This document shows positions 35,405 to 62,447 of a DNA stretch of 64,000 bases, piece after piece. The notes under the pieces were generated by a model. The model did not search any database. It saw nothing but the letters and a program-made list of their open reading frames with translations, and had not been told where the DNA came from. Numbering within the stretch: the stretch's first letter is position 1; each line of letters opens with the position of its first letter. A program made the position numbers and the translations under genes. The stretch is taken from assembly GCA_030998225.1 (NCBI GenBank), contig JAPYXD010000714.1, positions 5,580,001-5,644,000 on the forward strand, in the 5' to 3' direction. Source of the stretch: Diplolepis rosae (lineage: Eukaryota; Arthropoda; Insecta; Hymenoptera; Diplolepididae).

Positions 35405-36405
35405 TAGAGTATAAAAAATGAAGAGTAGCTTTGAAATACATCTTCTTTGAGGAAGTTGTTTTACAAAGTAAAACTCACGACACCCTGATGATGTTCCAAA
35501 GGTCTCGTTGTTTTTAAAATTAATCTTGGTAGTCCAAGTCTTATAAATACATCTTCCTCGGGGAAGTTATATGCATAATTGAAATTTATGATATCATGAT
35601 GATGTTACAAATGTCTCGTCTTTCTTATACTCATTCCTGACAGTCCAGGTATCAAAAATACATCTTCTTCGAGGAAGCTGTTTTACAAACTAAAACTCAT
35701 GACACCCTGATGATGTTCCAAAGGTCTCGTTGTTTTTAAAATTAACCCTGGTAGTCCAAGTCTTATAAATACATCTTCCTCGGGGAAGTTATATGCATAA
35801 TTGAAATTTATGATATCATGATGATGTTACAAATGTCTCGTCTTTCTTATACTCATTCCTGACAGTCCAGGTATTAAAAATACATCTTCTTCGAGGAAGC
35901 TGTTTTACAAACTAAAACTCATGACACCCTGATGATGTTCCAAAGGTCTCGTCGTTTTTAAAATTAATCCTGGTAGTCCAAGTCTTAAAAATATATCTTC
36001 CTCGTGGAAGTTATATGCATAATTGAAATTTATGATACCATGATGATGTTCCAAATGTCTCGTCTTTTTTATAATAATTCCTTGTAGTCCAGGTATTGAA
36101 AATACATCTTCTTGGAAAAAGATGTTTTACAAACTAAAACTCATGAAACCCTGATGATACACCTTTCTCGAGGAAAATGTATTTTCAATACCTGGACTAC
36201 CAGGAATAATTTTAAGAATGACGAGACCTTTGGAACATCATCAGGGTGTCATGAGTTTTAGTTTGTAAAACATCTTTCTCGAAGAAGATGTATTTTCAAT
36301 ACCTGGACTACCAGGAATGATTATAAAAATGACGAGACATTTGGAACATGATCATGCTATCATAAATTTCAATTATTCATATAACTTCCTCGATAAAGAT
36401 GAAAA
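35405..36405. repeat. Dimeric tandem satellite ending in an inverted block
   Basis: Two alternating units of about 115-120 bp repeat three times in direct orientation from about 35422 to 36150. Unit A contains CTGATGATGTTCCAAAGG and unit B contains CATGATGATGTTACAAATG. Both start with an ACATCTTCYTCGNGGAAG word that is itself near-palindromic. From 36150 to 36405 the same A and B units appear in reverse complement, giving a large hairpin. Confidence 0.9.
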
Positions 36406-38640: not shown

Positions 38641-39080
38641 AGCATTATACCAGGGATATGGTCGTCCCGGGCTTATTCTGTTTTGCGGTGCAGAGGTAGC
38701 ACCTTGGTTTTTTCGTGCAGGACCCCACAACGTGCTCCTCCTCGCCGCACCTCCAGCAACTATTGCTTCGGTCTGAGCCCCGGCAGTCTTTCATCGTATG
38801 GACAAAGCCAACGACATTCCTAAAGGCAGAGTCAAACCTTCCTCTGTCCTTTGCGGCACACTTGACTTCAACCAGAAGGTCCTTCTGTCTGGTATACCCA
38901 AATTCCACCCATTGTGACCCCCTAGTTCATGGGGATTTAGGTGGCTCTTGAGATTTTCAAGATCGCCACCGAACTGACCTCCTCCCAGACCTTCATTAAC
39001 ACCGCCTCTGAGCGGCGTGTTTTGGCTTCTCTGACACAGGGACTCGAAGTACTTCGTTGGTGCGTGTTTAATAATAAGCG
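38640..39080 (-). pseudogene. R1-type LINE ORF1 (gag-like) C-terminal zinc-knuckle fragment
   Basis: Minus frame 38908-38645 contains CWRCGEEEHVVGSC and then CYLC, the row of CCHC knuckles at the end of LINE ORF1 proteins, which bind element RNA. The upstream part (39080-38940) is in another frame and retains an arginine-rich ORF1-like stretch. Several + strand frames over the same DNA are shadows. Confidence 0.75.
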
Positions 39081-44951: not shown

Positions 44952-45185
44952 TTTAAAAAATGGTTGGTTCAGGAAGGAAATTCCCAATCTTGCTACATTA
45001 AGCTAAAAAGTTATTAGCTTAAAATTATTATCATATAAATTCGTCGTTAAGGTGTTATTGATTTTGATGTACTTAAACATACAAATGGTATATCAAAGTC
45101 AATACAATTGTATGTTATGAAAAATTGGTACCATATAAATTCATATTAAATTAAATAACTTTTGAATAAAAATATCTCAAAATTA

Positions 45186-45500
45186 ATGTTAGCATTATTA
45201 AAATATATGCATAAAGTACATTATAATTAAAGTTTTAAAGCTGTATCCTTTTTAAGATGGAAGTATTTCGAATTTAATATGCGCTACTGAAAAACAAACT
45301 TCCATCATATGCGATGAAAGTTTAATACAGAAATTTCTACCAGTATTCCAACAAATTTTACCTGAGTAATAATTTACCATATCAATTCGAAATTAAAACT
45401 AAAATTGGAATAAAGTCAGGATCATCATAAATATAAATGTCGAAAACTAGTAGGTAAATATCTGTGGGCACTTATATAATCACGTGTGTTATATTTCTAT
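45186..45500. mobile_element. Left arm of a large foldback element, split by the LTR element
   Basis: About 315 bp reading into CACGTGTGTTATATTTCTAT is mirrored at 62134-62447. Its last four bases, CTAT, are the target duplication of the LTR element. Confidence 0.9.
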
Positions 45501-46923
45501 TGTTACATCCCGTAAAAATTAATAAAAATTTAAAATCTCGCCTACAGCAAGGCAACCCGGCATACAACCAGGCGATTGACGAAGGTAAATCACATCACTG
45601 CGATGATAACTACTTGTCGATAGGATAATTACCTGAGATCGACAAGGCAGTTGAGTTGCATAAAATAGGAAAACTACGATACCGTCGGTAATGTAGAGAA
45701 CCAAGCCAATAAAACATTAATAATTATTTAATAAAAATAAAAATAATATTCATTATTGTTAAGAACAGCCATTAAATGATTGGTAATAATAATCAAACAA
45801 CAGCACATAATAATCAGCGATAACCAATAATGGATAATCAATCAATAATATCAATCACATTATTGGGGATCTGCAAATTAGCTTGAATAATATTTTAGAA
45901 TATAAACACCAAAAATTCATGTGCTTCATAAATACTATAAGAATATAAACCAAGTTGTAAAATAATAGATGAGTCAGTGCAATTATAACCTAGTACAATT
46001 GCACCGACCTGTCAACATATATACATCAAGTAACATAGCTGAAAAGACGAGAGACAGAGATACCGCACCGAGCATCAATGGACTTTGATCCCGATAGTAT
46101 GACCTGCGTGAGAACTAGCCGCGAGTTCACGAGTTTCCGCGACTGTCAGCAAGCATGGTCATCAACATTGCCGCCAGACGCGTGCCGATCAACAAATTAT
46201 CACCGTATGTGCCGATCTACAAATTAGCAACGTACGTGCCGATCTACAAATTAGCAGGCACTCTCCCACTATGGGAATAATCAATAATATATAAACCCCA
46301 GATTCACCTCTGGAGGTTGTCTTTTCGCTAGTAGCTGTTCAGTCTTCAAGATCTTAACGTCGGTAATCACTCCGTCCGCAAGTCATACTGTCGGTGTCAC
46401 GAATTGACCCTTCGATATTCGTAAATCGGTATCTTACACAAGGAATACCTCGGTACTTGGTAAATAAAATCCCTGGTCCTTCAGTGGTGCAAGTCCGGTG
46501 GTCGTGAATTAATAAGTGCCGTTAAATACGTGTATCGTCGTATTAAGTCGAGTTCTGAGAGTTAAATCTACAGAAAACGAACTTAACCAGTGTTTAGCAA
46601 GCAAGTTGGATTGTCTGATACGCTACCTGTACTACTTGACTAGCACTACTTAACTCCAGCGAGGATTGTGCCGTTATCCAGCTATCAACAAGGAGAAATA
46701 TACGACAAAACTCTTTCTCTTGCCTTCTCAAGCAAGGAAAAAGCGTAAGTTATATATATAACCATCTCAAAACTTATTATATTAACTATAACGCCAATTG
46801 TAGTGCGTGAGTTGTATACCTAGGCATGTCAAAACCTAGTTTACCACTCTGATGCAATCAGCAAACTTTCCTCCCTTTTCCTAATTTTCCCAACCTTCCC
46901 TCGCCTTAGCTCGGGACGTAACA
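45501..46923 (+). repeat. 5' LTR
   Basis: Starts TGTTACATCCCG and ends CGGGACGTAACA, which are inverted. From about 45574 it matches 60178 onward almost base for base. It has one extra CGTACGTGCCGATCTAC unit near 46230 and lacks a ~390-bp minisatellite block present in the 3' LTR. Its first ~70 bp have no counterpart before the 3' LTR. Confidence 0.85.
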
Positions 46924-46950
46924 GCTGATTTGGTGGCAGCGGTGGGATCG
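46924..46950 (+). other. Candidate primer-binding site
   Basis: TGGTGGCAGCGGTGGGAT begins eight bases after the LTR end. The TGG start and position are usual for tRNA-primed errantivirus-like elements. I could not name the tRNA. Confidence 0.55.
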
Positions 46951-48940: not shown

Positions 48941-49920
48941 ATGCCCAATTACAGATTTCGATCAGACAAGACCGGAGCAACCTATTTTACCGGCGACATC
49001 TCGCGCACCTGAAACGACGCAATGGTAACATCCATGGCAGAATGTTTTGCTATTCAACAAGGCATAATGAATGTGCCGATATTTAATGGTAAAAATATGC
49101 CAGTAAGAGACTTTATTCAGGACGTGATAAACGGAGAAGCCAGCATACCTGCCAACTGTGAAAAACAGTATATCAGAGCGGTTCTCTCCCGACTGAAGGA
49201 AGCAGCAAGAGATAGCACACACGGAAAAAGTTTTTTCTCCATGAAGGACTTGATTGACCACCTCAAACAACGGGTTGCTCCTCACAAGTCATATACATGG
49301 TACACACACGAAATTTCGAACATCAAAATGACCCGTAACGAAAGTGTAAGTGAATACTACGATCGCCTTACATTATTAAAATCTGGTGCGCAAGCCGCAC
49401 TAGAAGATAAATACGATAACGCGGATCTATTGTTAGCCCCTCTCAACGATTGTGCGTTAGAATCTTTTATTCGTGGACTTCCAGATGGACTCTCAGGAGC
49501 AGTAGAAAGCCGAAATCCAAATTCAATAGAAGCAGCTCTAAAATATGCCATAGAATACGAATCAAGACATCAGTTAAACCCTCAATCCCCACATAATAAC
49601 TTTTATGACAGAAATTTTGCTCAACCTGCATACTCAGGAATGCGTGATCGCAGCCCTAGTCCGCATGTCCGATTTGCGGCCTCTCCAGAAAGAAATAGAC
49701 CCAATGTAGATAGGCAAAATTCACCTAGATTAAATAGACGAAACCATTTCCCAACGGAACAAAACTACCCCAGCAGTTTGCCCCACCCCTATCCATACCC
49801 CCACATATCCACCCTATCAACCAGATCCTTATTACCCAAATCACCCTATTAACTATCCAAAACCTAACTACCCCTATAAGAACCCCACCAACCCCCTCGT
49901 ACGCCATCCCCATCTCCATC
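48941..49920 (+). pseudogene. gag: Errantivirus-like gag
   Basis: Encodes the virus-like particle protein. An ATG at 48941 is in frame with the main open region, but a TGA at 49010-49012 intervenes; translation from the ATG at 49022 avoids it. The frame 49022-49852 is capsid-like (helical core around 49150-49560), followed by an arginine/asparagine-rich tail. Near 49790 the frame appears to shift: the neighbouring frame continues a proline/tyrosine-rich tail to about 49920 while the current one stops at 49852. No CCHC knuckle is present, as in many errantiviruses. Confidence 0.85.
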
Positions 49921-50039
49921 AAACACAGAACATTTAAACTCCAGCCTTGCTCGCCGAGAGGACGCGACGACGAGCACAGACCAAAAAAGAGCGTCAAAGC
50001 AGTGTGAGGATATTAATGCAGCAAAGAAAGTCCTGTGCA

Positions 50040-50923
50040 CAAAATTTAGGAGAGAATCACCAGTAGTAGAGATCAGCTCACCCAATTTTAAAGAAAACAA
50101 GGCCCAATTACTAGTCGACACTGGAGCAGACGTAAACATAATTAAGCTAAGCTCACTCGACGAAGACATAATGGTATCACACAATGAAGCAATTGAAATA
50201 GCTGGTATAACCCAGAATAAGATTTCAACCCTTGGAACCGTTCAAATAAAAATTAAAAACTCAATAGTGACCTTTCACGTCACAGAACCAGATTTTCCTA
50301 TCAACACCGACGGGATTCTAGGAAGAGAATACCTCCGACAAGAAAAGGTAGAGATTTCATTTTGGCACAACACAATCGTCACTCATTCCAACCCAACCAA
50401 ACCCGTACCATTTGTAGACGAAGAATCCAAAATAGCCCAGGAAAATATGGAAGGCTACAAAGGGACAGCATTAGGACCTATCCAGATCAAAGCCAGAACT
50501 AAACGAGTAATCCCCGTAGAAGTCACAAATACAGAATTAAAAGAAGGTTATCTACCCTTAATTAAAACTACAGAAGGAGTACTAGTGGGTGAAGCAGCTG
50601 TAACAAACGCAAACGGAATTTGCCACGTATTGGCAATCAACACAGCTGAAAAAGATTTAAGCATTGAAATACCCCCACAAGAATTAATACCCTTCGAATA
50701 TTATAATTTACCAGGAGAAGATTCAGACAAATATTTTTTAGCCGAAAATTTCAAATTTGAAAGAGACAAAATAGAGGAAGTAATTGACAAATTACAGTTA
50801 AATCATCTCAATCGAGAAGAAAAGGAGCACGTCATAGAAATAGTGCGAGAGTTTCCAAAAAGCTTTTATCTGCCTGGGGAACCACTATCCCTACACATCT
50901 GGTACAACATAAAATACATATAA
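50040..50923 (+). pseudogene. pol: Errantivirus-like protease and pol N-terminus
   Basis: The frame has LLVDTGADVN, a retropepsin active site with the DTG triplet, then an ILGREYL motif typical of the protease C-end. A pol connector follows to 50923. It is open from about 50040 and in the same frame as gag. Near 50895 the sequence shifts frame into the RT segment. It would process the polyprotein in the particle. Confidence 0.88.
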
Positions 50924-51690
50924 CAGACGAAATACCGATAAACACCCGCCCTTACCGGTTTTCACCAGCTCAGAAAGAAGAAATAGAACGCGTCATAACT
51001 AAAATGAAAACTGAAGGAGCCATTAAAAATTCAAAATCACCCTACAACTCTCCATTACTAATTATACCTACAAAATTGGACCACACCGGAAAAAGCAAAT
51101 GGAGAATAGTGATCGACTTCCGCCTTCTCAATGAAAAGACGATTGGCGATGCTTACCCTCTGCCAAATATTTCCGAAATTCTGGATCATTTAGGTAGAGC
51201 CCAATATTTTTCAGTATCACATCATTAGCAGCGAAGGTGTAAAACCCGATCCAAAGAAGATAGAGGCTGTACAATGTTTTCCGCAACCCAAGAACCCTAA
51301 AAATATCAAACAGTTCCTAGGGCTAGCAGGATACTACCGGAGATTTATAAAAGACTTTTCCGCAATAGCAAAACCCTTAACGAATCTTTTGAAAAAGGAA
51401 GCAGTATTTAAATGGGGAAAAGAAGAAGAAGAAAGTTTCAAAATATTAAGACAAGCCCTATGTAATATAAATTACATTAAAATTACATTATATAAATTGT
51501 AAATTTTACAATATCCAGATTTCAATAAACCATTTACAGTAACAACAGATGCATCAGGTTTCGCAATTGGCGCTGTATTAAGCCAAGAAGTCCAAAATAT
51601 GGACCTGCCAGTAGCATACCTATCACTCGACAGTCTAAAAAAACAGAATCCAGCACTAAACCTCAAACAAAAACCTCAGTCTCTGGCCTA
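50896..51690 (+). pseudogene. pol: Reverse transcriptase with catalytic palm deleted, and N-terminal RNase H
   Basis: RT starts with the YRFSPAQKEEIE motif, then NSPLLIIP and WRIVIDFRLLNEKT. It ends abruptly at the SVSHH point (51228), where the first catalytic aspartate should follow. The next sequence is the thumb region (PKNPKNIKQFLGLAGYYRRF) in another frame, so the whole YLDD segment is deleted. A 45-bp A/T-rich insertion lies at 51460-51510. RNase H has only its first motif (TVTTDASGFAIGAVLSQ) and then runs into the insert described next. Confidence 0.9.
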
Positions 51691-52830
51691 CTGAACAAGC
51701 CCTCAATTTTCACCAGAAAGGGAGCGAAGCCAAAGGGTGAACTTTCAAACCCATCTACTTCGAAGCAGCTCAACCCCACCCTATCTCGATCTAAATCTAG
51801 CACTTCTACTACAGCAGAAGTCTATAAAGAAGACAGTAGCTCTGATGATACAGAAAAAGACTTGGAACCACCCCCAATTCTCCGAAAAAGAAAAAGTTTA
51901 CTACCCAGTTTAGATCTACCCCCCGCAGCATATCCACCCTCAACCATACCTAAAAGTGCCCCAGCAAATGTACCACAGGCCGAAACTGAATTCCCTTTTG
52001 AGGAACAAGAAGAACCAATTCTTACAATACAACAACAAGAAGGACCTATAAAAATCGTGAGTCCACCTATAAGCGATAGTGAAGATAGTCCTAGTGATGA
52101 TGACAATAAACATACAGAAGAAAGTAAACCTAAGCCATCAAAAGAGAGCCTGGAAAACTCATTTTTATTGTTTGAAAAATCTTTAAAGGCTCGCGAAAAT
52201 TGGCTATACAAAGAAAACACTAAAAAAGATGCCCCTATCCTCGAGATCACAGCCGTTCCGGAAGGAGAAAACAATCAGGAACTCCTAGAAGCCATTGAAG
52301 AACTAGAACCAGAAAGTGAAACTGAATTTGATAACCGAATTAAAACAGCAATTGAAACAGCACAGAAATTGATGAAAGAAACACAAAAAATGGGAAAGGA
52401 GGTGAACCCAGAAACAAAGGAAAATTTGGACCCCGGAATCCCATCTTCTGATGAAGAAGATCAACCTACCCCCAATCCACCTCTGCGGACCCGGAAAAGC
52501 GTAACTTTTGGACCTGAGATACCTGCAACACCCGACATGCTAGCAAACGTTAGTCCTTCAACATTCAAAGAACCTAAAGCGATATCAACCCCATATTCAA
52601 GTAATAAAGAAGACCACCCCAATACAGTAACTTCATCCACTAGATACAAGCCACGCAGAATGGACATGGAAATTCCTCAATTTTCGGAAAAAATCTCTGA
52701 AAACACACATAATGACAAGACTAAAAACACTTCTAAGCTTATCACCAGCATCCCCCAGAATTACCCACCGGTTGTAGCTCAAACGCCCCTACGACAAACT
52801 TCAAAGTTCTTAGCTGCAGAGAAAACTTAA
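51687..52830 (+). CDS. Acidic Ser/Pro-rich insert between RNase H and integrase
   Basis: A long uninterrupted frame; the first ATG at 51862 gives 322 codons, but it is open from 51687. The product is low-complexity: Ser/Thr clusters at the start, PPILRKRKSLLP, an EEQEEP stretch, SDSEDSPSDDD, and Glu/Lys-rich helical parts. No known domain. It replaces the RNase H C-terminus and tether and overlaps the integrase frame by a few bases at 52824-52830. It may be a hugely expanded pol tether or an acquired segment. An antisense frame at 51822-52274 is a shadow. Confidence 0.6.
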
Positions 52831-54278
52831 CATATTTAAGGAATAATTATGTACATTTTCTTTCTGCTGATGTTGAAGTAACTACCCCTGTAGGAAGATT
52901 ACTAATCGACATCGGAGCAATAGACCCACAGGAATTAAAAATTAAACAGCCAAAAATAGGAGAAGTATTGATTACCCCCAGAGGACAATATAATGTATAT
53001 TCACTGATAATAAAAAACCGACATTTCGACGACATAGATAAAACCATTCTCCAAACAGCCCTCCATAATTTAAGAGTGGCCCTATTCAGAGAAAACATCA
53101 CCGAATTTCGTATTTCGCGACAAGGAGACTTGACAGACGACCTGACGAAGGAAGAACTGCTCAAAATGATAATCAACGAGTTTGAAAACAGTAATATAAA
53201 GATAAGTATGTGTTACGGAAATGTAAGTACACCCCCTGAGGAGTCACGTCTAGAAATAATTTCTGAAAACCACAATAGTAAGATCGGAGGCCATAAAGGA
53301 GTTAACAAAACATACCAAAGAATTCGAGAAAGGTACTTTTGGCCAGGAATCAAAGAACAAGTCACTGATTTTGTAAGAAAATGCAAAATTTGGCAAGAAC
53401 AAAAAATTGTAAGAGCCAAAATTCATGAACCCATGTTGATAACAGATACACCCCTGGATACCTTTGATAAAGTTTCTTTAGACACTGTAGGCAAATTACC
53501 AACCACCCCAGACGGCAATAAGCACATATTAACCATGCAGGACAACCTTTCAAAATACTGCATAGCAGTACCAATTCCAGACATCTCAGCAGCAACAATA
53601 GCCCATGCATTAGCAAAAAACCTTATTTCTCAGTATGGAGCACCAAAAGCAATTCTCACCGATAAAGGAAAAGGATTTGTGAACAACCTATTGAGTAATT
53701 TATCAAAAATATTTGGAATAAAACAAATAACCACCTCAGGCTATAGACCACAATCTAATGGTTCACTAGAAAGGAGCCATGCCGTACTAATGGATTATGT
53801 TAGAGCCTATGCAGAAAATTATGACGATTGGGATCAACTGCTACCCTTCGCCATGTTTGCTTATAACACATCTGTCCACAGTGCAACAAAATTCACCCCA
53901 TTCGAATTAGTGTTCGGAAAAATAGCCCGTACCCCTAGTTCATTCCCCAATTACGAAAAATTAGAGACCTATCGTTCATATTTACAAGAATTAATTTGCA
54001 GATTAACAGAAATTAAAAATATGGCAGCTGACAATTTGATAAAGGCAAAACAAAACTCCAAACTAAATTACGACGCTAAAGCAAGATCGTTCTTCGGAAA
54101 AGTAGGAGATAAAGTCTATGTACAAAAGGTAGTAAAAAAACGCGGTAAATTAGACAGCAAATATTATGGACCTTTCGAAATTATTAAACTCTTGGACAAA
54201 CACACAGCGATTTTGAAAGACAAAAACGAAACCCTATTCCAAAAACACGTAGACAAACTCAAAATAGCTTACGAATAA
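52824..54278 (+). CDS. pol: Errantivirus-like integrase
   Basis: An open frame of more than 480 codons; the upstream part (VGRLLIDIGAIDPQEL) is the errantiviral pre-integrase region. The zinc domain has the two histidines (NHNSKIGGHKGVNKTY), but the second cysteine of the pair is tryptophan (CKIWQEQK). The catalytic D,D,E residues are present in SLDTVG, ILTDKGKGF and GSLERSH. A GPF-type C-terminal module (YYGPFEIIKLL) follows. It inserts element DNA. It is intact except for the zinc-domain change, and is now separated from an RT that cannot work. Confidence 0.93.
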   Translation, partial: NLTYLRNNYVHFLSADVEVTTPVGRLLIDIGAIDPQELKIKQPKIGEVLITPRGQYNVYSLIIKNRHFDDIDKTILQTALHNLRVALFRENITEFRISRQGDLTDDLTKEELLKMIINEFENSNIKISMCYGNVSTPPEESRLEIISENHNSKIGGHKGVNKTYQRIRERYFWPGIKEQVTDFVRKCKIWQEQKIVRAKIHEPMLITDTPLDTFDKVSLDTVGKLPTTPDGNKHILTMQDNLSKYCIAVPIPDISAATIAHALAKNLISQYGAPKAILTDKGKGFVNNLLSNLSKIFGIKQITTSGYRPQSNGSLERSHAVLMDYVRAYAENYDDWDQLLPFAMFAYNTSVHSATKFTPFELVFGKIARTPSSFPNYEKLETYRSYLQELICRLTEIKNMAADNLIKAKQNSKLNYDAKARSFFGKVGDKVYVQKVVKKRGKLDSKYYGPFEIIKLLDKHTAILKDKNETLFQKHVDKLKIAYE

Positions 54279-54323
54279 TCACTTAATATTAGAAACTAAT
54301 AGTCTTCTCATTATAGGAAGGAC

Positions 54324-54917
54324 ATGTCTGGTTTCACAACCTTGGACTCACCACTCCCCAGAGGACAAATCTATCCCACATACATACATCCCAAAGGAGA
54401 TGTAGAACACCTCAAGAATCCAAAGGGAGCGTTGGAAGAGCTATCAGCCGAATACGGATTTACCAAACCCTCTTATATCCTAATAAAGTCAGAAGGACCA
54501 GCTCATAATAGGACTTTTTACGCATCATGTACTATAAAAGATTGTAAACGTAATAAGATTTTATCAGAAAGTAGTAATGGCGAAAACAAACTTAAAAATG
54601 CTGAACATGAGGCAGCAAGGAAAATTCTAAAAAACCTAGAGGATAATTATTATTTTAGCGAAGAGCGAAATATTAATAATGAAGTAGAAGATATTTTTGT
54701 TTTGCGTCAAGACAAAGAAAGTAGGATGCTCATTAAACTATATAAGTGGGAACAATTTTGCGAATATTGTTATTTACGAGGACATAAACTAGAAAATTGT
54801 TCAAGAAAAATAAAACGTAATAAAAATTTTAAAGAAAATTACATTGTTACGGAAGAGGACTTTTGGGATCCTGTAGATAACATTAAAAATCCAAATTTAA
54901 TTTATATCACTCAATAA
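54324..54917 (+). CDS. dsRNA-binding domain plus CCHC zinc knuckle protein
   Basis: 197 codons, fully open, starting 45 bp after the integrase stop. Residues ~31-107 form a double-stranded-RNA-binding domain: helix 1 (KGALEELSAEYG), the GPAH loop (58-61), the beta strands with FYASCTI, and the basic C-helix (KLKNAEHEAARKIL). Residues 146-159 form a CCHC knuckle, C-x2-C-x4-H-x4-C (C146, C149, H154, C159), followed by a lysine-rich stretch. Position and openness suggest a selected extra gene expressed from a spliced or downstream RNA. Possible roles, inferred only: shielding element dsRNA from RNA interference, or RNA packaging. Standard errantiviruses, as far as I know, carry nothing here. Confidence 0.85.
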   Translation: MSGFTTLDSPLPRGQIYPTYIHPKGDVEHLKNPKGALEELSAEYGFTKPSYILIKSEGPAHNRTFYASCTIKDCKRNKILSESSNGENKLKNAEHEAARKILKNLEDNYYFSEERNINNEVEDIFVLRQDKESRMLIKLYKWEQFCEYCYLRGHKLENCSRKIKRNKNFKENYIVTEEDFWDPVDNIKNPNLIYITQ

Positions 54918-55202: not shown

Positions 55203-57173
55203 ATGGACCAACTAAACCCCACCCGAGGCCGAGAAAAATGGACTTGGATCTTGATCGTCATTATTTTTGCAACCCCAGTCACCCCAACACAATATGAAAT
55301 TCAACCATTGAGAAACAACCCTGGACTATTTTATGCCAAAGTTGAGCCCTTTGCGTATTACCAGTACATATTGGAGGATTGTCGTGTATATGGATCCACA
55401 GCACCTACAAGCACATCTCCAATCTAAAAACATATCAACTGATATAAACAACGTATATTCAACATGTTTGGACCAATCCCTAGAAGAAGACTGCAGAAGT
55501 GAAGTTAGAGTAGACCTGTTGAATGGAAAAGTCAAACAAATCGAAAATAATTATGAAGAATTAAAAAATATGTTAGCAGAAATAAAACAAGATACACCAG
55601 AACCAGAAAACCCACCCCAAGTATGCAGAAACGAAGAGCACCCATATTAGGCTTTATCGGATCAATTATTGGACCAGTGATAGGAGTGATGACTTCCGAC
55701 GACGCAGAAGAATATGATAACGCTATCAACGAACTACATGACAGACAAAATAACCTTAGCAAAATTTTGAGAAAACAGACCCACATTGTCAAATCAGAAA
55801 TCAACAACATTCACCTAGAATTGAATCAAAAATCGCAAGAGATCGCCAACATACAACAACAACTAAACGAGACCATCAAAAACATAGAATCGCATAACCA
55901 ATTCTGAAGTTATATCATATATTTCAGAAAAATAAGACAATGGGCAGACCATATCGAGATAAAACTTAATCACTTAGCCGAAAGTTTAAAACAATTTATA
56001 AAAATAGTAGAAGCAGCACGAGAAAAAAGGTTACATCCACTCCTTCTCACTAAAGAACAACTCCAAGAAATCATTACCGAAATACATTTTAAATTAAGTG
56101 AAAACGAATTTCCAATACCCACTTCACATGTTCGAGCAGAAGAACTATCAAAATTAGGAAAAACAGATGTTAGAATCAGCTCTGGACGACTGCTCATCGC
56201 CGTCGACATACCCTTACTAGATAAGGCAGGGTATCAGCTTTATGAAATTTATGCACATCCAGTGTATCAACAAATATCTCCGAATACAAAAGAATCTATT
56301 TATATAATACCAAAAACTCTGTATATTGCCCTGGCAAATGATGAAAGAAAATTCTTTCTCGTAAGCAATGAATATTATGATAATTGTCAAAAAACCTTTT
56401 ACAACACCATCTGTGAAAACACCCAACCCAAGCACGAAGTTTCCACAACCAACTCATGCGAATGTTTGATGTTAATAAGACCATCAAAAGATACCATTCA
56501 CCTTTGTGACATCAGGATGAAAATAGAAGAAGAAATGTATTGGAACTACATCCCTTCGTTATCTGCCTGGATTTATTCAACAAAAAATCCAGAGCCAATA
56601 AGCATCAACTGCATAAAAGGAAAACTGGAAAAAGGCTACCTCAGCAATTCAGGACTACTCCGATTAGGTACAGGATGTACTGCAAGGACGAAATATACCA
56701 CCCTAACCGGAACTCAGATTAATAAAAGGACAGAAGAATATATTTACAACCCTAATTTTACTTTCAATATAACTGAAATTCTTCCAAAGTTGGACACAAT
56801 TCAACAACTTCCTAAAATAAAACCTTTTACGTGGGAAAAACCTCACATAGGAAATTGGAAAAGGCTCCACACAGACGAATCACTTTCAACCATAGAAGAA
56901 CAATTGACAGAATTCGAAGAACAAAATTTTAATAAACAATTACATAATAAATACTGGACAGGAGGATCTAGTGCAATAATAATCATAATAATAATAATTA
57001 TGATTTATTTTGGAAAAAATTCAATCCTAAAATGTTTAAAAAACCCAAAAAGAACCCCTCAAAAGGAAAAGGCACCAACAGAACTACAATACTTACAACG
57101 AGTAAACATCCCTGAAATTCGAGTACAAACAGAAACTACTAAATTTCCAATTCGAAATATCCGAATTGCCTAA
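55203..57173 (+). pseudogene. env: Errantivirus-like env (fusion glycoprotein), broken
   Basis: Env of this class resembles baculovirus F proteins and gives membrane fusion. The start at 55203 has a hydrophobic signal-peptide-like segment (WTWILIVIIFATPV). The frame shifts near 55390-55427 and again near 55623. At about 55626 a basic KRRAP site, a possible furin-type site, is followed by a glycine-rich fusion-peptide-like stretch and a coiled coil. An in-frame TGA lies at 55905-55907. The rest runs open to 57173 with many cysteines and a transmembrane run of isoleucines at about 56972-57005, then a short basic tail. It cannot be made as one protein. Confidence 0.87.
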
Positions 57174-59860: not shown

Positions 59861-60238
59861 GTGCAGCTGCCCATCTCACAAACTGATGATGATTACAAAA
59901 TCTTACTATGCACAATTGGAACTGAAGAAATTAATAAACAAAATTATGAAGAATATGAGACAAATGCAAGGAATAGCATCACTAACCTGAATCGCTTGGG
60001 ACTTCTGGATGACACAAGACACGATAAACTAGACATAACAAAAATACACTCATTTCACAGAATCCGCAGAAATATAGAAAACGATAACTTGCGAAAAATA
60101 AGATTAAATTCAAACAAGAATAAGGAAAATAAACTGATCGTTATTAACAATAAAATGAGTTACGAGCGTCAATCGACAACAACCAGGCGATTGACGAAGG
60201 TAAATCACATCACTGCGATGATAACTACTTGTCGATAG
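59861..60238 (+). CDS. Unrecognised 125-codon frame entering the 3' LTR
   Basis: A lysine/asparagine-rich product with no domain that I know. It starts 45 bp from the antisense first exon, in divergent orientation, and its last 20 codons are LTR sequence, so it may not be genuine. Confidence 0.3.
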   Translation: MQLPISQTDDDYKILLCTIGTEEINKQNYEEYETNARNSITNLNRLGLLDDTRHDKLDITKIHSFHRIRRNIENDNLRKIRLNSNKNKENKLIVINNKMSYERQSTTTRRLTKVNHITAMITTCR

Positions 60239-61916
60239 GATAATTACCTGAGATCGACAAGGCAGTTGAGTTGCATAAAATAGGAAAACTACGATACCGT
60301 CGGTAATGTAGAGAACCAAGCCAATAAAACATTAATAATTATTTAATAAAAATAAAAATAATATTCATTATTGTTAAGAACAGCCATTAAATGATTGGTA
60401 ATAATAATCAAACAACAGCACATAATAATCAGCGATAACCAATAATGGATAATCAATCAATAATATCAATCACATTATTGGGGATCTGCAAATTAGCTTG
60501 AATAATATTTTAGAATATAAACACCAAAAATTCATGTGCTTCATAAATACTATAAGAATATAAACCAAGTTGTAAAATAATAGATGAGTCAGTGCAATTA
60601 TAACCTAGTACAATTGCACCGACCTGTCAACATATATACATCAAGTAACATAGCTGAAAAGACGAGAGACAGAGATACCGCACCGAGCATCAATGGACTT
60701 TGATCCCGATAGTATGACCTGCGTGAGAACTAGCCGCGAGTTCACGAGTTTCCGCGACTGTCAGCAAGCATGGTCATCGACATTGCCGCCAGACGCGTGC
60801 CGATCAACAAATTATCATTGTACGTCCCGATCTACAAATTAGCAGTCGCTCTCCCACTATGGGAAAAATCAATAATATATAAACCCCAGATTTACCTCTG
60901 GAGGTTGTCTTTTTGCTAGTAGCTGTTCAGTCTTCAAGATCTTAACGTCGGTAATCACTCCGTCCGCAAGTCATACTGTCGGTGTCACGAATTGACCCTT
61001 CGATATTCGTAAATCGGTATCTTACACAAGGAATACCTCGGTACATGGTAAATAAAATCCCTGGTCCTTAAGTGGTGCAAGTCCGGTGGTCGTGAATTAA
61101 TAAGTGCCGTTAAATACGCGTATCGTCGTATTAAGCCGAGTTCTGAGAGTTAAATCTACAGAAAACGAACTTAACCAGTGTTTAGCAAGCAAGTTGGATT
61201 GTCTGATACGCTACCTGTACCACTTGACTAGCACTACTTAACTCCAGCCAGAATTGTGCCGTTATCCAGCTATCAACAAGGAGAAATATACGACAAAACT
61301 CTTTCTCTTGCCTTCTCAAGCAAGGAAAAAGCGTAAGTTATATATATAAGCATCTCAAAACTTATTATGTTAACTATAACGCCAATTGTAGTGCGTGAGT
61401 TGTATACCTAGGCATCTTAAAACCTAGTATATTAGCATAAAACGTACAAGTTACATATATAGGCATCTCAAAACCTGTATTAGTAACTTGTAGACGCACA
61501 CTCTTAAACGCGGAAGTCACATATATAGGCATCTCAAAACCTGTATTATTGACTTATATAGACGCACACTTTTAATGCGTGATTTACATATATAGGCATC
61601 TCAAAACCTGTATTACTAACTCACAAACGCATAAAACCCTTAATATTGCCTTCTCATCCTGAGAAGTAGTAAAGTCATACACATAAGCATCTCAAAACTT
61701 ATTGTATACCTATCTTTTAATTAATAAAGCTTGTACACCGCAATATAATCAAATTTGTTATTATTGTGAACAACTCGAGCCGCATAGGTTTGTCTAGTGA
61801 CCACGATCCCACAAAAATATAAATAATCAGAATTTACCACTCTGATGTAATCAGCAAACGTTCCTCCCTTTTCGTAATTTTCCCAATCTACCCTCGCCTT
61901 AGCTCGGGACGTAACA
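60178..61916 (+). repeat. 3' LTR
   Basis: Matches the 5' LTR from 45574 on, ending GGGACGTAACA at 61916 and followed by the CTAT duplication. It is longer than the 5' copy because of a minisatellite block at 61440-61830. Upstream of 60178 there is no match to the first ~70 bp of the 5' LTR, so its start is undefined. Confidence 0.85.
61330..61720 (+). repeat. LTR minisatellite, about six units of 60-70 bp
   Basis: Units share the core ATATATAGGCATCTCAAAAC followed by CTGTATTA. The 5' LTR keeps only two units; the rest is missing there, with the junction at the same TTTACCACTCTGATG word. Confidence 0.85.
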
Positions 61917-62447
61917 CTATATTCTGGGTTATATCAGATTCTTTTAGATTATTAACGTAAATAATAAAAACTAACGCGTGAATATCTGCACGAATTAATA
62001 TATATATATAGTATAATTTAGAATTTATACAAACCAAAATGTGCGATTATATTAATTCGTACAGATATTCACGCGTTAGTTTTGATTATTTACATTAATA
62101 ATCTAAAAGAATATGATATAACCCAGAATATAGAAATATAACACACGTGATTATATAAGTGCCCACAGATATTTACCTATTAGTTTTCGTCATTTATATT
62201 TATGATGATCCTGACTTTTTACCAATTTTAGTTTTAATTTCGAATTAATATGGCAAATTATTACTCAGGTGAAATTTGTTGGAATACTGTTAGAAATTTC
62301 TGTATTGAACTTTCATCGCATATCATAGAAGCTTGTTTTTCAGTAGCGCATATTAAATTCGAAATACTTCCATCTTAAGAAGAATACAGCTTTTAACTTT
62401 AATTTTAATGTACTTTATGCATATATTTAAATAATGCTAACATTAAC
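61917..62447. mobile_element. Centre and right arm of the large foldback element
   Basis: 61917-62010 and 62045-62133 are inverted copies of each other around an A/T-rich centre (words ACGCGTGAATATCTG and CAGATATTCACGCG). 62134-62447 mirrors the left arm at 45186-45496. Taken without the LTR element, the whole is a palindrome of about 0.85 kb. Confidence 0.9.

Follow-up and report, generated by a model that had tools for sequence, protein, structure and literature searches.

A 64,000-nucleotide stretch of the Diplolepis rosae genome (contig JAPYXD010000714.1, positions 5,580,001 to 5,644,000 of the forward strand; hereafter the window) carries a long terminal repeat (LTR) retroelement that encodes, between integrase and env, a small protein combining a double-stranded RNA (dsRNA)-binding domain (dsRBD) with a CCHC zinc knuckle. 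We are highly confident that this open reading frame (ORF) represents a real accessory gene of env-carrying, errantivirus-like Ty3/gypsy elements in this genome and, with the same confidence, that its product of approximately 195 residues comprises one dsRBD of the type found as the second dsRBD (dsRBD2) of Loquacious/TARBP2, a conserved middle block, a knuckle of nucleocapsid type followed by a basic stretch, and a tail that is acidic. We rate the element as an insect-type endogenous retrovirus (ERV) bearing a new class of accessory gene. Suppression of RNA interference (RNAi) is our leading, if tentative, view of its action; a domain of RNAi-cofactor type may let the element escape small-RNA processing. 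The gene and its parts lie in the window at the following positions:

54324..54917, + strand: dsRBD-CCHC accessory gene, 197 codons from ATG to TAA, fully open
54420..54638, + strand: dsRNA-binding domain, residues 33-105 (Pfam dsrm; predicted alpha-beta-beta-beta-alpha fold)
54759..54800, + strand: CX2CX4HX4C zinc knuckle, residues 146-159, with a basic stretch after it (exact pattern, conservation, constraint)
54310..54316, + strand: putative 3' splice site ahead of the dsRBD ORF, ...TCTTCTCATTATAG then GAAGGACATG

A preliminary description, made from the letters of the window, had proposed an open 197-codon gene with a dsRBD, and the product (P0001) matches Pfam dsrm over residues 33-105 with 41.8 bits (E=1.7e-10; curated cut-off, 23 bits). 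Pfam identifies only this one dsRBD in P0001, which hence lacks the two-dsRBD arrangement of Loquacious, TARBP2, and R2D2. Structure prediction, which had been suggested as a check, gave the alpha-beta-beta-beta-alpha fold for the dsRBD; this fold reading is limited to the first half of the protein, as the model is of low confidence from residue 121 on (ten-residue means of 29-57). With regard to the CCHC knuckle previously placed at residues 146-159, these residues (CEYCYLRGHKLENC) form an exact and conserved CX2CX4HX4C pattern, but the Pfam zf-CCHC hidden Markov model found no match in P0001 up to E=1; the basis of the knuckle call is therefore the exact motif together with its conservation. 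Only two exact patterns of this kind occur in all six frames of the window; the other, at 38717-38758 on the - strand (CWRCGEEEHVVGSC), perhaps belongs to another retroelement. Among sequences P0001-P0032, the knuckle is intact in 14 of the 18 that are long enough to reach it (P0024 and P0026, which end ahead of it, are excluded from the 18), and the basic stretch IKRNK is conserved after it. The window copy carries private changes at positions conserved in the other members (F80L, C128R, and C145F).

A search of the window's own genome (757.7 Mb) with P0001, in which the best 150 of 1954 first-look candidates were scored, yielded at least 150 genomic matches. Among these best 150, long rows fall into family A (70-100% identity) and family B (43-51%), with fragments besides; the two families are approximately 48% identical to each other. 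By hand count, stops are absent from 37 of the 47 family-A rows that reach 179 residues and from 49 of the 72 family-B rows that reach 176. Sequence and profile searches of a protein database identified at least 37 homologues beyond the query, all on ENA contigs (17 at first, 31 cumulatively with a later search, and 6 more among the best 7996 candidates). Searches for related loci elsewhere returned 228 pattern stretches from IMG/VR, none of them confirmed, and 57 stretches from prokaryote genome contigs, none of them a related locus.

The position of the gene between integrase and env, as originally described, is clear in the window, with H2C2 and rve domains directly upstream and Baculo_F pieces downstream, and it recurs in other elements. 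Among 40 loci examined (the 20 best family-A rows, including the window copy; 19 family-B rows picked as stop-free; and one A fusion copy), the dsRBD gene is preceded by integrase in all 40 and followed by env in 38, with no env inside the examined stretch of L014 or L039; a homologue is also present in two further families, D and F. Among the matches listed, 44 of the 49 leading A-type integrase rows (82-99% identity; six partial rows lower in the list were excluded) have a dsRBD row within 1.2 kb downstream, and the remaining five may reflect loss or the extent of the matches listed. Deletions in L040 and P0018, with differing break points, have joined integrase and the dsRBD gene into a single frame. 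The preliminary description had treated copies that lack the gene, or hold it only in decayed form, as evidence against it; many copies are stop-free, but at two loci of a sister lineage (of nine scored rows with 59-61% integrase identity) env follows approximately 230 bases after integrase, and neither the A nor the B protein has a match there. The gene has therefore been gained in, or lost from, parts of the element group.

Ratios of nonsynonymous to synonymous substitution (dN/dS), a check that had likewise been proposed, show that the gene is under purifying selection in families A and B. Calculated by NG86 on stop-free copies of equal length (15 of 20 loci in A and 15 of 19 in B, 105 pairs each; loci with stops or differing lengths were dropped), dN/dS was 0.42 at a dS of 0.036 in family A (0.39 for all 20 loci) and 0.19 at a dS of 0.195 in family B (0.18 for all 19, which had been picked beforehand as stop-free). 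By part, family B gave 0.32 for the N-terminal tail, 0.17 for the dsRBD, 0.22 for the middle, 0.10 for the knuckle, and 0.13 for the C-terminal tail; the knuckle is thus the most constrained of the five parts within B, and its ratio between A and B is 0.12. The overall A-versus-B ratio of 0.18 is not firm, as synonymous sites were saturated in 138 of 225 pairs. In the same copies, dN/dS was 0.52 (A) and 0.16 (B) for integrase and 0.29 (A) and 0.16 (B) for an env piece, and mean dN between A and B was 0.47 for the dsRBD gene, with integrase at 0.18 and the env piece at 0.22. Homologues together with purifying selection rule out a chance ORF, and multiple genomic loci with conserved position rule out a hitchhiker confined to one copy. 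By contrast, the emphasis initially placed on a clean gene among broken neighbours carries less weight; the ORF is open where gag and pol are in shifted frames and env is broken, but in a neutral, substitution-only simulation 48% of copies still lacked stops at an amino-acid identity of 95% (at 47%, none of 1000 did), so that an open ORF in this dead window copy is weak evidence.

In sequence and profile searches, the second dsRBD of Loquacious/TARBP2 came out closest to the window domain; the top sequence matches are RNAi cofactors, and Staufen and ADAR score far lower. We judge that the dsRBD was probably captured from an RNAi cofactor. The host has Loqs-like genes of its own (L060, L061, and L062, on C252 and C382), whose dsRBD1 and dsRBD2 lie in different open stretches; one Loqs-like host gene shares 65% identity with ant Loqs across residues 1-116, which hints at a hymenopteran host.

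The sequence ahead of the gene suggests how it may be expressed. In each of the 20 family-A loci a splice-acceptor-like sequence lies 7 bases ahead of the ATG, and a stronger version, with a polypyrimidine tract and ACAG, occupies the same place in 17 of 19 family-B loci. A TACTAAC branch-point-like motif accompanies it in 9 of the 17; L031 lacks the polypyrimidine tract, and L038 is not covered by this comparison. Acceptor-like sites were also seen by eye ahead of env at nine loci, more clearly in six from family B than in three from family A. As a loose rule finds such sites ahead of 88 of 1010 ATGs in the window, a single instance means little, and the argument is conservation across diverged families. 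Most likely, the dsRBD-CCHC protein would be made from its own spliced mRNA, like env.

Families D and F extend this gene content. All three loci examined (L063 and L064 for family D, and L068 for family F, whose order thus comes from one locus) show the order chuvirus-like glycoprotein, two-dsRBD gene, dsRBD-CCHC gene, and Baculo_F-type env; the gene rows span L063:496-5057, L064:1315-4189, and L068:2-3281, with apparently two envelope-type genes per element. The glycoprotein matches PF24664 at 2.2e-228 in L063 and partially in L064, and that of L068 is 79% identical over 417 residues. In the D copies the two-dsRBD gene matches dsrm at 8.4e-8 and 3.2e-10, and L068 has a partial 35% match; the family-D companion protein contains two dsRBD-like units, and the best PDB match of the second dsRBD is R2D2 (4e-4). 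A family of repeated frames of approximately 266 codons was also found with a Loqs query. The dsRBD-CCHC gene itself has 192-194 codons, with dsrm matches of 7.9e-4 (L063) and 6.1e-4 (L068), both just under the Pfam cut-off, and 1.4e-6 in a truncated L064 copy; a PDB sequence search with the truncated family-D knuckle protein gave a sole, unrelated match (E=0.12). Aligned with hhalign, the 192-codon product matches the window protein across dsRBD and knuckle (95.8%, E=6.8e-9; 28% over 127 columns). Env was recognized as Baculo_F by Pfam at 2e-9 in L063 and at 5.8e-5, just under the cut-off, in L068, and by a 27% tblastn match in L064. Upstream of the L063 genes lie reverse transcriptase (RT) and RNase H sequences that are 57-59% identical to those of the window; no integrase was seen in this copy. 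A genome search with the 192-codon product gave at least 150 rows (best 150 of 1619 candidates), which by hand count comprise 24 family-D rows (66-100% identity) and 126 family-F rows (51-54%). By the same hand count, 117 of the 126 family-F rows are stop-free and 20 have one shared score; many family-F copies are probably young, and the pattern suggests a recent burst. Beside the family-D copy, L064:8-1282 (- strand) holds an open frame that by eye resembles a Penelope-type RT with a GIY-YIG end.

Three observations lead us to favour, tentatively, a role in RNAi suppression: the kinship of the domain to Dicer partners, the fast change of the gene between families while under selection, and the R2D2-like companion gene in families D and F. 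The layout of an accessory gene is a further, general tie to such a role. Under this proposal, the dsRBD, taken over from an RNAi cofactor of the host, would meet the Dicer-2/Loqs/R2D2 machinery on element RNA, where either the dsRBD and knuckle would cover structured or double-stranded element RNA or the accessory protein would compete with host cofactors; in both cases element transcripts could evade small-RNA processing. A fuller history, which we regard as possible but doubtful, would have an ERV clade take a cofactor of the Loquacious/R2D2 kind, fuse one dsRBD to a nucleocapsid-type knuckle, and produce an anti-silencing protein from a spliced message, with some families adding a tandem-dsRBD gene and a chuvirus-type glycoprotein.

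A number of results weigh against RNAi suppression. Residues through which such domains contact dsRNA are retained in part: the GPxH loop is present as GPAH in the window protein but lost in the aligned family-B members, glutamate replaces the third lysine of KKxxK in helix 2 in 11 of 12 aligned members (P0010 retains lysine), and in the D and F proteins GPxH is absent and helix 2 is still more degenerate. Helix 2 of the window protein retains basic residues but has glutamate at the third position, as does bacterial RNase III. Domain charge is +2.9 in P0001 versus +0.1 to +0.9 in P0009, P0021, and P0046, which lie outside family A; these degenerate contacts, this weak charge, and the known control of such elements by piRNAs speak against a simple dsRNA sponge. 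A dsRBD tree (31 rows, 77 columns) placed the element domains among dsRBD2 sequences in unresolved order, with long family-D branches, and left the source of the domain unsettled. The C-terminal tail is weakly constrained between A and B (ratio 0.60), and within B the gene (0.18) is constrained like integrase and env (0.16 each), so that selection alone is no mark of a counter-defence gene. Finally, insect env-carrying gypsy elements are described as piRNA targets (PMC13172572). The production of piRNAs needs no dsRNA.

Among the alternatives, the strongest, although in our view unlikely, is that the protein acts in trans as a nucleocapsid, supplying the knuckle that Gag lacks and selecting, dimerising, or chaperoning genomic RNA for packaging and reverse transcription. 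No CCHC-like pattern occurs in the Gag regions of 18 loci from families A and B (a gag match is present in 17, though partial in L053, L057, and L058), and, as far as seen, the element's knuckle resides on the accessory protein. The tight constraint on the knuckle, within B and between families, is consistent with such a role, as are the retention of the gene in families A, B, D, and F and the weak similarity to Arc1 (PDB entry 6tap, of Drosophila; E=0.027) that a profile search gave for the knuckle part. However, errantiviral Gags are reported generally to lack CCHC (PMC2577118), so that such elements manage without one; the two sister-lineage loci lack the gene, and packaging leaves the kinship to Loqs and R2D2 unexplained.

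The splicing signals bear on a further reading, which we consider quite improbable, namely that this small spliced gene between pol and env is a Rev-like regulator whose product retains or exports unspliced structured RNA. The acceptor-like sites ahead of the dsRBD gene and, by eye, env would suit such a regulator, as would the conserved basic IKRNK stretch past the knuckle, and complex retroviruses place accessory genes in a comparable position; simple errantiviruses, however, splice env without such a gene. Interference with a host dsRNA-dependent step other than RNAi, such as ADAR editing or a dsRNA-sensing response, is very improbable; the fold is common to dsRBDs of many functions, and dsRBD proteins act in several pathways, but the best sequence matches are RNAi cofactors, with Staufen and ADAR far behind. 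That the gene is a functionless, hitchhiking fragment of a captured host dsRBD is hardly credible and already hard to hold: stops do occur in 10 of the 47 long family-A rows and 23 of the 72 long family-B rows, but family-B dN/dS is 0.19 at a dS of approximately 0.2, and length and knuckle are kept at approximately 48% identity, a level of divergence at which no neutral simulation stayed open.

The remaining features of the host element, which is 16.4 kb long, are located in the window as follows:

45497..45500, no strand: target-site duplication CTAT, 5' copy, 4 bp (flank comparison with the empty site)
45501..46923, + strand: 5' LTR, TGTTACATCCCG ... CGGGACGTAACA (LTR comparison)
46931..46948, + strand: putative primer binding site TGGTGGCAGCGGTGGGAT (from sequence), presumably tRNA-Leu-like
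49022..49852, + strand: gag piece without a CCHC knuckle (Retrotrans_gag E=2.9e-4, below the Pfam cut-off)
49880..51691, + strand: pieces of pol in shifted frames, covering the protease region, RT, and RNase H (frames of other copies, by eye)
51529..52827, + strand: 433-codon open stretch rich in Pro, Ser, and acidic residues, in the gap from RNase H to integrase (open frame)
52968..54278, + strand: integrase ORF with H2C2, rve, and GPF motif (Pfam; open frame starts at 52737)
55203..57173, + strand: env of Baculo_F type, broken in the window copy (ATG at 55203; Pfam)
60179..61916, + strand: 3' LTR with an expanded tandem array inside (LTR comparison)
61917..61920, no strand: target-site duplication CTAT, 3' copy (flank comparison)

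The LTRs are 96.4% identical over 1277 aligned bases, with ends TGTTAC...GTAACA; homology of the 3' LTR begins at base 64 of the 5' LTR, whose first 63 bases are unmatched. The tandem array in the 3' LTR has units of approximately 66 bases (61440-61638). Inverted arms of approximately 318 bases (94%), at 45183-45500 and 62130-62446, flank the element, which inserted into one arm of this palindrome. Joined and reverse-complemented, the two 30-base flanks agree at 59 of 60 bases with positions 62100-62159 in the other arm, where the empty site is thus visible. Compared with the frames of other copies and by eye, part of RT is missing from the window copy, and Pfam found no family above cut-off in the 51862-52827 portion of the 433-codon stretch. 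The integrase end and the dsRBD-gene ATG are 45 bases apart and in the same frame. Searched apart, the env pieces match Baculo_F at E=3.5e-6 (55623-55904) and 3.1e-21 (56262-57170). The errantivirus layout ascribed to the element in the preliminary description thus holds for LTRs, gene order, Baculo_F-type env, and CCHC-less Gag, but not for integrase, which reads ...YYGPFEII...; as errantiviruses are reported to have lost the GPY/F motif (PMC2577118), we call the element errantivirus-like. Elsewhere in the window, dense direct and inverted repeats of approximately 80-520 bases occupy 35431-36401. For the window as a whole, Rfam gave 0 matches at the gathering threshold.

To our knowledge, descriptions of env-carrying gypsy elements usually list no genes beyond gag, pol, and env. 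In agreement with the earlier statement that no errantivirus gene of this kind had been described, the open-access literature searched (which included few subscription papers and no bioRxiv preprints) contained no dsRBD gene in any insect retroelement. A selected gene of Loquacious/R2D2 kinship in four element families of one genome offers a small, expressible protein with which ERV counter-defence against small-RNA silencing can be tested. If it is anti-silencing, the arms race between ERVs and RNAi would be waged with the host's own cofactor; if it serves packaging, a nucleocapsid split from Gag would be likewise unusual. The layout of families D and F, with two glycoprotein-type and two dsRBD genes at three loci, broadens the gene content known to us for gypsy-type elements.

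Compared with known systems, the element protein resembles Loquacious/TARBP2/PACT and R2D2 in its second-dsRBD-type domain, as does the D/F companion gene in its tandem dsRBDs, but the element protein has one dsRBD plus a CCHC knuckle, has no third dsRBD, nearly always carries glutamate in place of the third KKxxK lysine, and is encoded by a retroelement. With errantiviruses such as gypsy and ZAM the window element shares LTRs, gag-pol-env order, a Baculo_F env, a CCHC-less Gag, and the 4-bp target duplication usual for that group; it differs in the extra gene between integrase and env and in keeping the integrase GPF reported lost in errantiviruses (PMC2577118). The proposed action of the element protein would be like that of the dsRNA-binding viral RNAi suppressors Drosophila C virus 1A, Flock House virus B2, and birnavirus VP3, which differ in being proteins of RNA viruses not borne by retroelements; we know of no knuckle in any of the three. 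For Drosophila C virus 1A, PMC4246224 describes binding of long dsRNA and inhibition of Dicer-2. The additional ORF of plant Tekay elements is likewise an extra LTR-element protein; according to PMC11728184, the maize and sorghum proteins resemble a DRBM protein in predicted structure, and for the sunflower protein a sequence comparison returned no known domain. That ORF differs in its location on the 5' side, and the dsrm match of the window protein is significant by sequence. Finally, the chuvirus-like glycoprotein gene of families D and F recalls Anakin and other chuvirus-glycoprotein captures: PMC10084718 describes such glycoproteins next to pieces of Gypsy elements in several orders, Hymenoptera among them, and reports capture by a Pao element but no clear Gypsy capture, whereas the family-D glycoprotein stands beside gypsy-type RT and RNase H and a Baculo_F-type env.
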